Assembly: GCA_030998225.1 (NCBI GenBank)
Contig: JAPYXD010000484.1
Span: 434,001-498,000, forward strand
DNA: 64,000 bases
DNA from: Diplolepis rosae
Lineage: Eukaryota > Arthropoda > Insecta > Hymenoptera > Diplolepididae
Direction: 5' to 3'
This document shows, piece after piece, positions 2,917-47,850 of this stretch. Each line of letters starts with the position of its first letter. Within the stretch, counting starts at the first letter, position 1. The position numbers were made by a program, and so were the translations under genes. Under the pieces are notes generated by a model that saw only the letters and a program-made list of their open reading frames with translations, was not told the DNA's origin and searched no databases.

Positions 2917-3534
2917 TCAATTATTGACCCCCCCCCCCGCTCCTCGTCTGAACGTAAATTCCCCGCCCTGATTCAAGACGATCAGTTCGTTCCTAGCCAC
3001 CATCTCGCCAACCAAGATTCCCCTCCTATCTAGGCGGGCCTCACCCCACTCGGGCGACATACTGTTGAAGTCACCCCCTATGAGGGATCGCCCGATGGCC
3101 TCACGGTGGCTTTCCTCAAGGAGGAGGATCTGGGTCTCAAAGACATCGAAGGGATCGCCGGGGGAGAAGTAGCAGCTGTACACACGCACACCCGCCACCT
3201 CCACCCAAACGAACCCCGCGTCGGTCTCCAGGAAGTCCCCGACGCCCAAATCAGGGTTACAAACAAGGATGCCGGCCCTCCTTGATGCATCCTGATACCA
3301 AGCAGAGTTATCGGACCACTTGTACTGCTCACTAATGAGCAGCACATCAGCCCCCCTCTCCCTGGCAGTCTGCTTCAGGAGGTCCTGGGCATCCTTCCCC
3401 CTTCCGAGGTTGAGCTGCAGGAACTTCAATTCCTGCCTCTCACCCTCCGAAGCTCTTCCTGGAAGACTGGGCAGGAGCCGCTCCCTGACACATGGGCGAC
3501 ATCTTTGTCGCCCCTGTCTGCGCATGACAGGCAC
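2917..3534 (-). pseudogene. APE-like endonuclease region of R1-like copy 1
   Basis: The frame starts inside the end of the gag frame, as is common for ORF2 of such elements. It contains LKFLQLNLGRGKDAQDLL, a conserved first strand of EEP-fold nucleases, then SRRAGILVCNPDL, DAGFVWVEVAGVRVYSCYFSP, and GGDFNSMSPEWGE, where the catalytic D and N lie. In this family the nuclease nicks target DNA to prime reverse transcription. The frame breaks in a homopolymer (a C run at about 2930-2940 on the + strand), after which the nuclease continues in another frame. Copy 2 at 29.4 kb has the same segment, with GGDFN altered to AGHLN. Confidence 0.8.
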
Positions 3535-4030
3535 CTTGGTGGCGCCTTACAAGCCCTGGCCAAGTGTCCCGTCGCGCCGCATCTCCAACAGGCGTTTTTC
3601 CTGTCGGAGTTGCTGCAGCCCCGGGACCCGTGGCCGTACCCAAGGCACCTGAAGCAGCGGGCGACTTCCACGTGCTCGCGAATACGGCACTCCACACACC
3701 CAGTCCTCAACTTACCTAGCTGAAGCAGACGCTGAAATTTGCGCCCTTTCCCCGACCGCCAGGTCGAGCTCCTTTCGGAAGGCCGAAACGTCTCCCCCCT
3801 TTTTGAGGACCAGAAGGACTTCTTCTTTCCTGGTCCTCCGGACAGACAGGACCTCAAGTCCTGCCTTCCGGGGGTCGACCTTCGCCTTCGCTCTCCAGGA
3901 AGCACTTGTGGGTGTTGAGCATACTGCTCAACACCTCAGTTGCCTCGTTCACCGAGTCTTTAACGAAGCCAGGGTTATTCCTCAGCATACCCTGTTGTAT
4001 AACGCTGAGGGCCCTGGCTAACTTTTCCAT
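3426..4030 (-). pseudogene. gag-like ORF1 of R1-like copy 1 with zinc knuckles
   Basis: An ATG at 4030 opens a frame beginning MEKLARALSVIQQGML. After a frameshift near 3880 it continues in the frame 3426-3905, whose C-terminal part reads CFRCLGYGHGSRGC, then CWRCGATGHLARAC, then CLSCADRGDKDVAHVSGS: two CCHC knuckles plus a third CxxC-type finger. Such gag proteins coat the retrotransposon RNA. Much of the middle of ORF1 is missing compared with copy 2 (29.4-30.3 kb), so copy 1 carries an internal ORF1 deletion. The stop at 3426-3428 overlaps the endonuclease frame. Confidence 0.75.
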
Positions 4031-4767: not shown

Positions 4768-6080
4768 CAAGGTGCGTTCCAAAATAAACGAGACTTTTGT
4801 CCTAAAAATTTTTTTGGTGGTACCATCTGTGAATGAGGTAGTGCGTTGGAAAGTTATATGCCTCCCTGACTTCCAGTGACAGTTTTATGACATTCGGTTC
4901 AGTGGAAGCGAAGTTATTGCGTCTAAAGTGTCAGTGTGTTTGTGTCATCGGTACAAAAATGAGTTTCGAACAAAGAGCTAATATCAAATTTTGTTTTAAA
5001 ATCGGTAAAACGTTTACCGGAACATTTGAATTGATCAAAAAAGTTTATGGCGATGATTGTCTAACTCGTGCCAGAGTTCATGAGTGATTTACACGTTTCA
5101 GAGATGGTCGTGAGGACATAAATGACGATGAACATACGGGCCGCCCAAAATTAGTGATCACCGAAAACTCCATCGAAATTGTGCGTGAATTTATCAAAAA
5201 TGAGCCGAAATCATCTTTGAAATTCATGGAATAGGAGTTGAATATCTCCAAAACATCGATTTATCGCATTTTAACCGATCATTTGGGCTTACAAAAGGTC
5301 TGTGCACGTTTTGTTCCCCACGAGTTAACTGATGACCAAAAATTGCTCAGAATTCAACATTCGAAAGACATCATTAAAGAGGCGAGAAAAGACGAGAGCT
5401 TCCTTTACAACATTGTAACTGGTGATGAAACGCGGTGTTTCCAGTATGAACCTGAAACCAAGCGTCAAAGTGCCGAATGGAAGGCCTCAGACGAGCCACC
5501 ACCCAAAAAATCGCGTTTGGAGAAGTCAAAAATCAAGTCGATGCTCATTTGTTTTTACGATTCCAAGGAAATTGTCCACAAGGAGTTCGTGCCAACGGGC
5601 CAAACCGTCAATGCAATTTTCTATCTTGGCGTTTTGAAGCGTTTGTTGCATCGCATTCGTCGAATTCGGCCTGAATACCGCGAAGGAGGAAGCTGGCGCT
5701 TATTGCATGATAATGCACCATCTCATAGATCCACTCTTGTGACTGATTTTTTTACTAGAAATCGCATTTTAACCATCAGTCACTCACCGTATTCGCCTGA
5801 TATGGCTCCCTGTGACTTCTACCTATTCGGAAAATTGCATTTGGCCATGAAAGGAAAACGTTTTGTGTCCGTAGAGGCCACCCAAAAGGCTTTTACCGAC
5901 ATCCTGAAGGACATTCCGGTCAATGACCTGAAACACTCTTTTGAAAAGCTTTTGGATCACGCAAAACATTGTATCGAGGCCGGAGTGGACTGTTCTGAAT
6001 AAATAAACTCGAATTTATCAGAACAAAGCTCCTGTCGTTTCTATTTTAGCTCAGTCTCGTTTATTTTGGAACGCACCTTG
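4768..6080 (+). mobile_element. Mariner element, complete ends with TA target duplication
   Basis: The ends are perfect inverted repeats of at least 27 bp, beginning CAAGGTGCGTTCCAAAATAA at 4768 and mirrored at 6054-6080. Both are flanked by TA (4766-4767 and 6081-6082), the target duplication made by Tc1/mariner insertion. Total length is 1,313 bp, typical for mariner, and the single transposase frame fills the middle. Intact ends and an almost uninterrupted frame point to a fairly recent insertion compared with the other mariner relics here. Confidence 0.95.
4959..6002 (+). pseudogene. Mariner transposase (DD34D) with two nonsense codons
   Basis: From the ATG at 4959 one frame runs to TAA at 6000-6002, 347 codons, the usual mariner length. 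It is broken only by TGA at 5085-5087 (one base from the Trp codon expected there) and TAG at 5232-5234. The N-terminal half holds helix-turn-helix regions (FCFKIGKTFTGTFELIKKVYG; NISKTSIYRILTDHLGL). The catalytic residues are in VTGDET, LLHDNAPSH and SPDMAPCDFYLF, with exactly 34 residues between the second and third Asp, hence DD34D. Transposases of this type cut at the TIRs and paste into TA. The stops make this copy non-autonomous, but it keeps ends an active relative could mobilise. Confidence 0.92.
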
Positions 6081-6816: not shown

Positions 6817-7116
6817 CAAAAATAGTATATTGTGTATCTAGGAGGTAAAGTAGGTCTTTTGGGGCGAGGACCAATGTATTCAGGCCGAGTCGTAGCCGAG
6901 CGCGCGCCGAAGGCGCGTGCGAGGAGGAGACGAGGACTGAATACATTGGTCGAGTCCCAAAATGACCAACCTCCGTGGTACACACGATATTTTTTGCAAA
7001 AATACGTCCTAAAGAAGTATTTCGAGTGTCTGTAGAATGGTATTGAGAGTGTCCAATTACGACTCGGTGGAATAGTAACATGCTATAACAATAATATTGA
7101 TAAATATGGCACGAAA
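6817..7116 (+). repeat. Left inverted repeat of recombinase element
   Basis: From CAAAAATAGTATATTGTGTA near 6818 to AATATTGATAAATATGG near 7109 this sequence matches, in reverse complement, 10111-10344 with few mismatches. The left arm carries about 60 bp that the right arm lacks: CCAATGTATTCAG and CTGAATACATTGG form a 13-bp inverted pair around a CG-rich core (about 6880-6945). Confidence 0.9.
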
Positions 7117-7118
7117 GG

Positions 7119-7222
7119 TTGTGGAAAGGGCTGTAGGGGGAGGGGCCCAGGGGCGGAGCCCCGGTGGGGGTGCAGGGGGCAAAGCCCCTGCCGGGGGGTT
7201 TGGGGGGCCGTGCCCCCCGAAT
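7119..7222. repeat. GC-rich iterated hairpin block
   Basis: About 100 bp with very high G content on the + strand, sharply unlike the AT-rich surroundings. It contains three successive hairpin motifs of the form GGGGC-xxx-GCCCC: GGGGCGGAGCCCC, GGGGCAAAGCCCC and GGGGGCCGTGCCCCCC, separated by G-rich linkers. Its function is unknown; the G runs could also form quadruplexes. It has no counterpart next to the right inverted repeat. Confidence 0.8.
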
Positions 7223-7872
7223 TGTATGGAACAAATTTGATTGAATTTAATAATGTATGGAAAAGTATAAACTTTGGTTAGATTAATTAAATATTTTTTA
7301 ATTTATGAATAATCGCTGAATTTCAAACTGCAGCATTTTTATGATTGTTGAAATATTCCCACTATTTTGAACTGTACAATTTCTTCTGGAAATTATTTTG
7401 CCACTGCGTTAAGCATACGAGAAAATTAATTAATTTACCAAATACCGTAATAATCGACTATTTTTCTAATAAAAAAATGTAGAAAGGTTGTTGTAAAAAA
7501 ATATTGACATTTGGTCAATCAATAAATAAAAAAAGATAATTTAGAATTACCTAAAAAGAAGTTTTTCAGTGACAAATTACTAATTATCCCAAAAATTGTA
7601 CCTAAAATTTTTTAAACTTGGAGAAACAAAATTTTACGTTCCAGAACAATACATAATTAATCTAACCAAAGTTTATACTTTTCCATACGTTATTAAATTC
7701 AATCAAATTTGTTTCTTCAAATACTGAATAACCCAAAAATTGTACCTAAAATTTTTTAAACTTGAAGAAAAAAAATTTTACATTCCAGAAAAAAAATTAT
7801 TTAATACTAGTTCAGTTACAAAAAACACTTTGAAATATGTGACCACTTTAAATAGCATATTTGTGGGAGAAA
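7223..7872. repeat. Subterminal AT-rich modules of the recombinase element
   Basis: A module containing AAAAATTGTACCTAAAATTT, a run TTACGTTCCAGAA and TAATCTAACCAAAGTTTATA occurs at about 7588-7737 and again, partly, at 7734-7815. The same module lies in the same orientation at 9949-10110, and a piece of it is inverted at 7223-7300. The stretch 7300-7587 is AT-rich without other signal. Multiple subterminal copies are what one expects of protein-binding sites near transposon ends; that role is inferred. Confidence 0.75.
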
Positions 7873-9271
7873 TTATTTATTTTGGACTATATTTACTGAA
7901 CAGTTTGTGAAGTGAAATATTTGTGTCGCTGCAGATGAAGAGGTATTGACATCTGTAGTGACTTGACTTGACGCAATTATAGTTGATGTATTAGATAGTT
8001 TTTTTTTTTTCGGCGACGGAGGCAATTCATTGTCAAGGTTCAAATTTATATTAGTTGAAATCATGGCGCTCGTTTTCTGTTTGTTTGAGACGGAGTCGTC
8101 GCAATATCCTTGTGCAGTGGAATCTGATTTCCATCCCCCAAGGTTTTTCAACCGCAACATCGAGGCTCCGGACTGGGCCAGTAATGTTGCTGCAGTGCGA
8201 CGGAATGTATGACCAGTGTACGTTTCTGGATTTTCTAGTTCGAGAAACAATGCTATTTCGTTTGGCATTTTAGAGAATTTATGCTTGCCAATAAATTGAA
8301 TGGAACATTTTCCGTTTTGATAATTAACGAAAAAGCGATCAGACACAACATTCTCAGGCCGCATGTTTATATACTTTTTTATAATGTCGTAGAATTTCTC
8401 GTCGATGGTAAAGCTTCGACTTGTTTCCGTTTTTGATGCTGGAACTTGAACATGCAGCATTAGGTCATGGAATTTGAGATGTTTCATAGCTACGTTGATC
8501 AATTCGCACCCTCGCATTGCGCCATTAATTCCGAAAATGCAAGCAATCTGTAGACAATTAATTATATTTAACGGTGTGAATAATTGAAGTTATGAATAAC
8601 AGTTTAATATCTTATTTTGTTTTATTTATTTATTTATAATTCATCCAGCAGAAATCATTATTACTAAAGAAATAAGTTCATATTTTCTTTTTATTATTAT
8701 CTTAACCTCAAAATTAATAATTCAAGATAGTTTTTCTGTTATTCGTGATGAGAAAAAGTTGTTCGCTTTATCTTGCAATGCGAAAATCAACGATTGTTGT
8801 TTGACACGTTAATATCTATCATTTAATTTATTTATTATTTATTGTGCGAAAGTTACTTACCTTTGTTGCAAGATAATTGTGGTCTGGAGCTTCGAGAAGA
8901 AATTTTTCAATTTCTTTGGCTGTAAAGGTATTTGATTTCTTCTTTACGTAGTTTTTATTTTTGGCTTTGATAAAATATTTCAACTTGAGGAAGGACTCGA
9001 TGTCTATGTTTTCATTTTGTTTTATCAGAGCCTTTAGCATTGAGTACTGGCTCCACAAAGTTGAAGGCTGATATTTTTCGGCCAAGTTGCTCATGTAGGC
9101 TAACAGCACATTCTCGGATGTTTTTGATGCATTGTTATCTTTTTTCCAGTCGGTGAAAAATTTATAGGTTTGTTCGTAGATATGTCGTGACTTTTCAGGG
9201 AGCAAATAGTTCGAGGTTTTTTCAGCTTCTCTTAGCAATTCGGGTGGAGTTGATAAAAACTCTTCTTCCAT
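7873..9271 (-). CDS. Tyrosine recombinase (Crypton-like integrase), two exons
   Basis: Minus-strand gene: exon 1 is 9271-8861, the intron 8860-8548 (GTAAGT donor, TCTACAG acceptor, phase 0), and exon 2 is 8547-7873, giving 361 residues. Residues 1-137 look like the SAM-like core-binding domain of phage-integrase proteins. The catalytic domain carries the full set: Arg in GINGAMRGCEL, Lys in PASKTETSRSF, His-x-x-Arg in TGHTFRRTAATLL, Trp in LGGWKS and the nucleophile Tyr in AQGYCDDS. Such enzymes cut and join DNA through a 3'-phosphotyrosine link. A basic stretch PSPKKKK near the C-terminus may be a nuclear signal. AATAAA overlaps the last codons. No stop or frameshift interrupts the spliced frame, unlike almost every other element here. 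Confidence 0.85.
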
Positions 9272-9332
9272 TGCGTTATACGATTTTGTTATTGTTTTTG
9301 TCAGAAGAATTAAGAATTTTCAACTAGCGGGT

Positions 9333-9944
9333 TAGCACTGAGCCCAGAACGTGCGAGATGGCTCCCTGGTGAGCAATGAAGGATTTAGCTTAATGGCTGC
9401 TGTCGCCATCTCGCGGTCCGATCAAGTACTTGCTTGGGGGGAAATAGAATCCATTTCTCGCAACTGTGCAGAGGGCGTAAGGAACAAAAGTAGGACATAA
9501 GGAACGAAAGTAGAACTTAAGGAAGAAAACAGATACAATATGAACATGCTGGTCGTAAATGGACAACTTTACAGCCGCTCTACAGGGGCTCGTAGAACTA
9601 CTTTAGTGCCTGTTTTGCAAAAATATTTTATTTTTATATTTTTATATTTTATTTTTTTGCAAAACAGGCACTAAAGTAGTTCTACGAGCCCCTGTAGAGC
9701 GGCTGTAAAGTTTTCCATTTACGACCAGCATGTTCATATTGTATCTGTTTTCTTCCTTAAGTCCTACTTTCGTTCCTTATGTTCTACTTTTGTTCCTTAC
9801 GCCCTCTGCACAGTTGCGAAAAATGGATTATATTTCCACCCAAGCAAATACTTGATCGGACCGCAAGATGGCGACAGCAGGGATTAAGCTAACTCCTTCA
9901 TTGCTCACCAGGGAGTCATCTCGCACGTTCTGGGCTCAGTGCTA
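9333..9944. mobile_element. Foldback element: near-perfect 612-bp palindrome
   Basis: The left arm starts TAGCACTGAGCCCAGAACGT at 9333 and is mirrored up to 9944, with an AT-rich loop near 9625-9655. Arms are about 290 bp with only scattered mismatches and small indels. There is no coding frame. Such structures are non-autonomous foldback transposons or very long hairpins. The arms contain several variants of AGGAACGAAAGTAG. It sits between the recombinase gene's 5' end and the right module, so it could be a nested insertion or a part of the larger element. Confidence 0.85.
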
Positions 9945-9948
9945 ATAC

Positions 9949-10345
9949 TTAATTAATCTAACCAAAGTTTATACTTTTCCATACGTTATTAAATTCAATC
10001 AAATTTGTTTCTTGAAATACTGAATACCCCAAAAATTGTACCTACAATTTTTTAAACTTGAAGAAAAAACATTTTACGTTCCAGAAAAATATTTAATTAA
10101 TCTAACCAAACTTTCGTACCATATTTATCAATATTATTGTTATAACATGTTACTATTCCACCGAGTCGTAATTGGACACTATCAATACCATTCTACAGAC
10201 ACTCGAAATACTTCTTTAGGACGTATTTTGCAAAAAATATCGTGTCTACCACGGAGGTTGGTCATTTTGGGACTCGGCCTGAATACATTGTTCCTCGCCC
10301 CAAAAGACCTACTTTACCTCCTAGATACACAATATACTATTTTGA
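9949..10345 (-). repeat. Right module and right inverted repeat of recombinase element
   Basis: 9949-10110 repeats the AT-rich module seen at 7588-7815 in the same orientation. 10111-10345 is the reverse complement of the left arm 6817-7116 minus its CG-rich insert. The outermost shared bases read TATTGTGTATCTAGGAGG in the inward direction on both sides. Confidence 0.88.
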
Positions 10346-11284: not shown

Positions 11285-11645
11285 AGAAAAGTTGTGGAAC
11301 CTCCGTAGCTCAGATTACAGAGCATTCGACCGGGAATCGAAAGGACCTGGGTTCGATACCCAGCGGAGTGGAAGCGTTCCTTTTTTCACAGAAAATTTCT
11401 TCAATTTATTTCAAATTAATTAGTTGAGTTTGAAGCGTCATTTTTTCCACAGAAAGATTTTCAAATTCTTTAAATATTCTTCAATTTATATTGAAAAATT
11501 CCATCTAGTTTTAAATGACGTTAAATTAATTCTAAATCATAGGTTGATAAGGTCGATATAGTAGAGTACCGTTATCACGTAGAGTGATACACTCTTCTAA
11601 TGATCGACATAATCCACTGAAATGATTTAGAAAAATTGATTAAAA
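11285..11645 (+). repeat. tRNA-derived SINE-like repeat, plus copy
   Basis: 11301-11368 folds as a tRNA: CTCCG pairs with CGGAG, a D stem GCTC/GAGC encloses AGATTACA, an anticodon stem TTCGA/TCGAA encloses a 7-nt loop CCGGGAA, and the T arm is CTGGG TTCGATA CCCAG. A-box TAGCTCAGATT and B-box GGTTCGATACC are good pol III promoter matches. The loop lacks U33 and the other copies differ in the anticodon, so this is a SINE head, not a working tRNA. The tail has T-rich spacers and ends with ATCACGTAGAGTGATACACT and AATGATTTAGAAAAATTGAT. Confidence 0.75.
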
Positions 11646-11650
11646 AAAAA

Positions 11651-12599
11651 ATATGTTTTTGTTCTACTTCAATTATTTAAAACCTGAAAATAGGAAAAAT
11701 TCTGAAATAAATTACACAAACGTATCATTAGATGGCCGAAGTAGTAGCATTTTTCGGAAAAATTTTTATGCCAAATTTAATAACAAAAAAAATGTTTTTT
11801 TCAAACAAATTTATTTTTTGTAAAAAACGCCATTTTTGAAAAATCTGAAAAAATACATAATGATAGCCATAAGTATTACGCACATTTTAGGTATATAATT
11901 AAAATGCGCACTCGAAAATTGTGCGAAATATCAATTTTTTTTGTAATGTGATGCGCGTGTAATCACGATCTTTGATCGAAGGCGTCGAGCGCAACTTCCA
12001 CTATTGCTGTATTACTGTCTATTTTTTCGAGAACATTGTTATCAAAAAGTGATGGGAAGTGATTATTTATTGTTTTATGTTCCCTTTATACTTATAACAT
12101 ATGATTACTGTAATACGTTTTATGATTATATATAAATTATCATTATCAAATAACTTTTTTTATTATCATGAAAATAAATTATTAGATTCTTATAAAAAAA
12201 TTTGTATGGGTTGTCCTTGAAGTATATCCACCATTTTTCCGCAAAAAAATGTTTGAATATTTCTTTCAAACATCCTAAATGTGCAAAGAGATTGATGGTG
12301 TGAAATGCGGTAGAAAAAAATTATAATCTTGAATGTATCGCGTACAAGCGTTGATTTATTTTTTCATGTCAACTGTTTTGATGGTGATCTTCAATTTATT
12401 TTTCACTTTCTATTTTCGTTTCTTAATCTTTATGCCTTTTTGTTGGAGTTCGTGTAACGTTAATTTATTTTGGCACTTTTTTTTGTTTTGGCGAAGACCT
12501 TCGCTTTATTCCCCGCTTTGGTTTTTCGATCCTGAAACAAGTTGCGTATAGTGTTATTTTCTTTTGTAAACTGAGCTTTTCTTTCTTCCATATTTTATT
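11651..12599. other. AT-rich, low-complexity stretch
   Basis: Runs of A and T dominate; no supported gene, repeat partner or RNA seen. Confidence 0.5.
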
Positions 12600-47695: not shown

Positions 47696-47850
47696 ATAAA
47701 TAAATAATATTTTTTTGCAAAATACGTCCTAAATAAATGTTTCGAATTTCTGTAGAGTGGTATTGAGGGTGTCCATTTACGACTCGGGTACTGCCAAAAT
47801 GTTATATCAATAATATGTATAAATATTGTACTTATTCGGTGGCAAATTTG
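47696..47850 (+). repeat. Orphan fragment of the recombinase element's inverted repeat
   Basis: TTTTTTTGCAAAATACGTCC, then TGTAGAGTGGTATTGAGGGT and TTTACGACTCGG match 6990-7115 in order with substitutions and small indels. No recombinase gene or second repeat is near, so it is a remnant of another copy. Confidence 0.8.

Follow-up and report, generated by a model that had tools for sequence, protein, structure and literature searches.

A probable insect Crypton with defined ends, and a gene-less neighbour, in Diplolepis rosae

In the accessible portion of the 2011 survey by Kojima and Jurka (PMC3212892), no terminal repeats are reported for insect Cryptons, none being present in 50 copies of one insect family, and short direct repeats at the termini are reported for fungal Cryptons and for no animal Crypton. 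For Cryptons, a curation guide lists short direct repeats at the termini and no other terminal feature (PMC8969392). Here we analyse a tyrosine recombinase (YR) gene in a 64,000-nucleotide stretch of Diplolepis rosae DNA (contig JAPYXD010000484.1, positions 434,001 to 498,000; hereafter the window), where a first-pass annotation had proposed a distinct class of YR transposon with long terminal inverted repeats (TIRs). On present evidence the unit instead fits an insect Crypton (CryptonI) by protein and architecture. We think it likely that the gene belongs to an intact autonomous Crypton (copy 1), that a gene-less derivative (copy 2) lies next to it, and that the encoded recombinase integrates a circular form of the element at an AT-rich dyad.

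As in the CryptonI elements of the survey, a single YR gene without an extra C-terminal domain is found in an insect genome, in a unit without terminal repeats, and non-autonomous derivatives with both ends far outnumber autonomous copies (PMC3212892). The ends, the target dyad, clean insertion, the fixed overlap, the junctions between the two ends (B-A junctions) and the end hairpin are defined here, and none of them is described for animal Cryptons in the accessible text of that survey. In the literature searched, with subscription papers and Repbase outside it, nothing was found that describes ends, targets or circles of animal Cryptons.

The spliced gene on the minus strand (7873-9271) encodes 361 amino acids (aa) and is free of stops without altering any base, as the first-pass annotation had read it. 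The protein matches Pfam Phage_integrase (E=2.8e-16) across residues 116-288, and R149, K176, H250-x-x-R253, W276 and Y285, which we take to be the catalytic residues, are all in place, the first four of them in conserved alignment columns. A protein search gave 38 related proteins, and every match with a named species was from an insect (Leptopilina, Choristoneura, Tribolium, Planococcus and others); the closest, P0001, is 76% identical over 62% of the query. The gene DNA has 23 matched stretches in the 757.7-Mb assembly that includes the window (G000), and related YR proteins have at least 137 there (best 113 of 358 candidates scored). No relatives were found in the prokaryote genome contigs searched, by a sequence search of PDB with the recombinase, or in one search of viral contigs, and another viral-contig search gave a single weak match (L072). 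Inside 6823-9622 no open reading frame (ORF) longer than 142 aa was present besides the two recombinase exons, and thus no Rep/helicase; nor was there an ORF of reverse transcriptase or RNase H size, or any other large gene.

The inverted repeats flanking the gene exist (6819-6891/10271-10343, 99%; 6948-7121/10107-10279, 96%), and so does the subterminal module directly repeated on both sides (7648-7805/9944-10101, 94%), which is common to both copies. They do not, as had been thought, bound one unit, since they belong to two copies, 6823-9622 and 9655-10339, with a 32-bp spacer between. Copy 1 was placed by alignment with L010, a locus on another contig. From end A to end B, 2,796 positions are aligned, of which 15 are mismatched, and there are 4 gap columns; the match is continuous and stops at both sides at the ends of copy 1, and the left flanks are unrelated, the left 500 bp of the window having no match in the L010 flanks. 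The L010 exons are likewise stop-free, and the earlier suggestion that the element may be recent or active is strengthened by this close pair. Another inverted repeat, which the first-pass annotation lacked (9332-9626/9651-9945, 295 nucleotides, 96% complementary), surrounds an AT-rich centre that is the boundary between the two copies. An inserted foldback element was considered for this palindrome and rejected, the centre being the meeting point of two end-B regions.

The right part being another copy, inverted and without the gene, the apparent TIRs are the left (A) ends of two tail-to-tail neighbours. In copy 1 the gene runs from end B towards end A. At the other gene-bearing loci that were fetched (L010-L017), end B adjoins the gene in 8 of 8 and end A is at least partly kept on the expected side in five; the A matches are all in gene orientation, except for the back-match of the hairpin in L010. 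These copies bear out that the recombinase sits in a mobile unit with which the left-end repeats travel. The proposal of a TIR-bearing class was said to fail if other copies of the gene consistently lacked the inverted repeats, and a second, oppositely oriented end A was found at none of the eight loci, which tells against the proposal. As a caution, a TIR transposon can be mimicked by two tail-to-tail copies.

Copy 2 has the build of a short family. An end-A query of the assembly gave 659 first-look candidates, of which the best 40 were scored. In L024-L050 the gene was matched in 0 of 27 loci and end-B plus end-A sequence in 25, the family size being about 0.7-1.0 kb. Twenty of 21 aligned gene-less copies differ from the consensus by 1.1-3.6%, and the remaining one (L059) by 14.4%. 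In L012 and L013 the segment corresponding to 7282-7805 has the opposite orientation to that in the window copy and is flanked by inverted copies of the module, and gene-less copies also show inverted module order.

End A starts TAGTATATTGTG. The end-A pattern, with the overlap unconstrained, occurs at 141 places genome-wide and the end-B pattern AGTGCCTGTTTTGCAAAA at 273, with 0 in the reversed-pattern control in each case. Figures for end A are based on 100 listed of the 141 places, and those for end B on 97 of 100 listed flanks, of 273. The seven bases before TTGTG are exactly TAGTATA in 88 of the 100 A ends and within one mismatch in 98, the two exceptions being TTTGATA and TACTGTA, and a smaller set of 39 loci has the exact form in 26 of 31 A ends. 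The 7-mer after end B is variable, with 62 distinct forms in 97 flanks and a mean pairwise identity of 0.55 versus 0.96 at A. TAGTATA follows two of the 97 B ends, one at a tandem junction on contig C21 and one on C239, i.e. L017.

Counting away from end A, the last three flank bases are A at 0.96, 0.86 and 0.70, and the flank after end B follows A A N N N N T T T. AT-rich and roughly AAA-N7-TTT (N7 being any seven bases), the target forms a dyad, and for the combined target the dyad score is highest at position +4.0, in the middle of the 7-bp overlap. Around the same centre the arms of the B-A junction, CAAAATA and TATTGTG, match at 6 of 7 positions by eye. As to short direct repeats at the termini, the sequence common to end B and target is a variable A-run.

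The joined flanks of L025 were aligned with paralogous repeats in L064, L038, L060 and L058 and were gap-free across the junction in 6 of 6 alignments. Judged from these paralogous empty sites, insertion is clean, without target duplication, in one of three target repeats. Absence of target duplication speaks against a DDE transposase. The B-A junction GTTTTGCAAAATAGTATATTGTG (at most one mismatch) was found at 14 places, and at 0 in the control. Those in L051, L054, L055 and L059 join copies of copy 1's family, L059 holding three in a row, and those in L056, L063 and L064 connect its end B with A-type ends from other families. The 14 head-to-tail junctions fit a circular intermediate; such a tandem arrangement would equally arise from integration beside existing ends or from circle dimers, which are indistinguishable here.

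End A folds as a single hairpin beginning in the overlap, with a z-score of -9.3 for 6823-7000. The corresponding folds in L066, L069 and L038 gave -10.0, -4.7 and -3.7, and the controls gave -0.8 (end B, 9483-9630) and -1.6 (7000-7140). Across 11 copies 96.1% of the cells were paired with a covariation score of 0.063, and six cells were changed on both sides; for each of the latter two values, 0 of 500 shuffles were as high. Three pairs with two-sided change were reached by 75 of 500 shuffles and the further pair types by 248 of 500, so that the pair counts lean to a kept structure, yet are mixed. In a crude test of outer against inner hairpin 17-mers the shuffled maximum was exceeded in 0 of 15 A-type ends, and among four short A-end stretches (L068-L071) L069 alone has the hairpin in full as far as the inner core. 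An internal inverted copy of the joined junction is 68% identical over 170 aligned columns and runs through the junction, its alignment score of 49 comparing with a mean of 6.1 and a maximum of 17 among 200 shuffles. Coordinates of all features are given in Table 1.

Table 1. Features of the two copies in the window (strand as assigned; a dot marks features without strand)
Feature	Positions	Strand	Basis or remark
Copy 1, complete, probably autonomous element, 2,800 bp, end A (6823) to end B (9622)	6823-9622	-	L010 alignment
TAGTATA, 7-bp overlap carried with end A	6823-6829	+	end-A listing
End A hairpin (X), long imperfect palindrome	6823-6997	+	single-strand fold; 11 related copies
Internal inverted copy of joined B-A junction	6900-7063	-	blastn 115/170
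GC-rich, partly palindromic tract	7122-7229	.	similar tract after gene in L065
Subterminal module, several direct and inverted copies (7230-7298, 7504-7661, 7648-7805)	7230-7805	.	
Recombinase exon 2 (R, K, HxxR, W, Y)	7873-8547	-	
Intron, GT..AG	8548-8860	-	P0001 match starts at same point
Recombinase exon 1	8861-9271	-	ORF/splice reading
End B region, ending ...GTTTTGCAAAA at 9622	9332-9622	+	pattern AGTGCCTGTTTTGCAAAA
AT-rich host spacer, 32 bp, including target-derived 7-mer beside each end B	9623-9654	.	
Copy 2, non-autonomous, gene-less, inverted, 685 bp; end A at 10339	9655-10339	-	same build as short family L024-L050

We propose that the recombinase would join end B to end A to give a circle with the junction GTTTTGCAAAA-TAGTATA-TTGTG, and that this circle would recombine with AT-rich dyad targets of about AAA-N7-TTT, entering between the last A and the N7 without target duplication. 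The element's own 7-bp overlap would stay at end A and the 7 bp of the target at end B. Copy 2 would have inserted beside copy 1 in the opposite direction, derivatives keeping both ends would be mobilised in trans, and existing ends would themselves serve as targets, from which tandem arrays would result.

In this proposal copy 1 is an element of its own. That the whole of 6819-10343 moves as one TIR-bearing YR transposon we find scarcely credible: the window does have strong inverted repeats around an intact gene, but none of the eight other gene-bearing loci has a second inverted end A, the right part is its own gene-less member of a large family, and L010 also ends where copy 1 does (9622). 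A rolling-circle (Helitron-like) family with the recombinase gene as a passenger is improbable as well, although rolling-circle elements, too, have fixed termini, leave no target duplication, carry a hairpin close to one end and can stand in tandem, and Helitron-type genes have 24 matched stretches in the assembly; the unit, with no other ORF above 142 aa, holds no Rep/helicase, its ends are not of the TC...CTRR form, and the dyad target suits a recombinase better.

Within a Crypton reading the manner of crossover has to be weighed. A symmetric two-strand reaction of a tyrosine recombinase across a non-homologous overlap should leave the target 7-mer at A and TAGTATA at B in about half of the insertions. 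This half-and-half outcome is hardly seen, so either the crossover is confined to a short A-run or one strand decides. An ordinary Crypton crossover inside the A-run common to end B (GCAAAA) and target (AAAA), using both strands and not strand-polarised, is possible, if short of probable. It agrees with the last flank base being A in 96 of the 100 listed A ends (86 and 70 at the two before) and with the short direct repeats of 4-6 bp that are a published mark of fungal Cryptons in the accessible part of the survey (PMC3212892), but the common run is often shorter than 4 bp (e.g. L014, L025, L044, L050), and the dyad is centred in the middle of the overlap, its score being negative at the A-run. 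The fixed overlap and the one-sided hairpin would also allow, tentatively and with rather low expectation on our part, a strand-polarised recombination in this group of animal Cryptons. One defined strand would be exchanged under guidance of the end-A hairpin (in cruciform or single-stranded form), and the move would then be finished by replication or repair. The palindrome rather than its sequence would then be the kept feature, and the copy of the B-A junction inside the element, inverted and DIRS-like, may be either a leftover or a component of the same machinery.

Several observations weigh against the reading of copy 1 as a Crypton that integrates in the proposed way. The contigs with numbers below C195 hold 18 diverged YR loci; only one of these (L066, on C190) has a strict A-type end on the side where it would be expected, no more than 5 kb away, and one has such an end on the other side. 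Loci L065 and L067, fetched as diverged autonomous copies, are without an end of their own, the A-type end in L067 pointing away from the gene. Together these results mean that the ends are not general for YR genes here, and for many A-type ends a known enzyme is lacking. Furthermore, L026 compared with window 11997-12181 has a 2-bp gap near the junction and L027 compared with L063 a 2-bp gap beside it, which gives an ambiguity of 0-2 bp for those two target repeats. The TAGTATA at L017 precedes a T-run and may be an opposite-strand product, which counts against the polar form in particular.

A wider group of ends is present in the genome. The sequence WWWATAGTATATTNTGNNNCTAGG occurs at 1,026 places in the assembly (100 listed) and at 0 in the control, and a second family, TTGTGCAACTAGGGAAAAAA, has 1,205 A ends, again with 0 in the control. 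In 72 of these listed with their letters, 59 have exactly TAGTATA or TAGTACA and 9 are one base off, so a fixed overlap is not peculiar to one family. The YR gene of L066 is 43-44% identical, and its A-type end has its own hairpin on the expected side. An A-type end belonging to a further family (TAGTATATTATGTGCCTAGGCGCATAATGAGGG) lies at window 59247 to about 59440, and the sequence behind it is predicted to fold strongly. Facing pairs of A-type ends at C58:4199445-4199679 and C73:2766993-2768045 give the impression that certain derivatives possess an A end on each side, which would provide them with genuine TIRs. At C138:1462995-1463769 A-type ends recur at 31-bp spacing and multiples thereof, a possible satellite grown from the end.

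Additional copies and neighbours were observed. In L017 a short copy (3378-3721), with end B on one side and an inner B-like site on the other, abuts the gene-bearing copy. Window 47711-47831 is about 83% identical to 6990-7122 and starts at the inner TTTTGCAAAA core; it is probably a relic of a relative that used the inner site as its end. The GC-rich palindromic tracts at 7122-7229 and at about 3170-3270 of L065 are alike, and they lie downstream of YR genes that are only 44% identical. The window also contains an inverted pair (11002-11138/11275-11411, 94%) that is tRNA-like, with a tRNA-Pro called by ARAGORN at 11299-11371, and a 254-aa ORF (5238-6002) with a partial DDE transposase match (Transposase_1, 8.6e-13).

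The proposed mode of integration can be compared with other YR systems. DIRS, PAT and Ngaro elements share the tyrosine recombinase, and the internal region complementary to the joined outer ends recalls the internal complementary region of DIRS in the accessible part of PMC6681497; here, however, there is no reverse transcriptase and no inverted terminal repeats, and the internal copy is only 68% identical. Unlike in ciliate Tec and other TIR-bearing YR elements, the gene does not lie between terminal inverted repeats of one unit. Starships of fungi resemble the present element as YR-driven DNA transposons with short spaced targets. Their target motif also has an N7 spacer, but they are giant cargo elements with a DUF3435 captain.

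Strand-biased circularizing integrative elements (SEs) are likewise described, in the available portions of three papers, with a short non-homologous overlap of 6-7 bp from one side only (PMC5991714, PMC10214605, PMC9345347), the 6-bp spacer deriving from one side (PMC10214605). With every move an SE takes a new overlap from its old flank, whereas TAGTATA is fixed here, as would be expected if the same strand were used in both steps; SEs are also multi-gene and bacterial. With integron cassettes the likeness consists of a tyrosine recombinase, a palindromic site poorly conserved in sequence and a single fixed exchange point, and attC recombination involves the bottom strand only, according to the accessible text of PMC2727003. 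The present element, on the other hand, is eukaryotic and self-contained with its own recombinase, and for it a folded-strand reaction is a conjecture prompted by the fixed overlap and the hairpin.

The element may thus be described as an insect Crypton whose mode of integration is defined and perhaps unusual, and target choice and DNA joining of animal Cryptons appear undescribed in the literature searched. With exactly placed ends, a dyad target, empty sites and a circle junction that can be predicted, together with a pair of intact copies that is very young, the reaction lends itself to direct testing. If exchange is indeed strand-polarised and guided by the hairpin, a bacterial integron mechanism would have a counterpart in animals.

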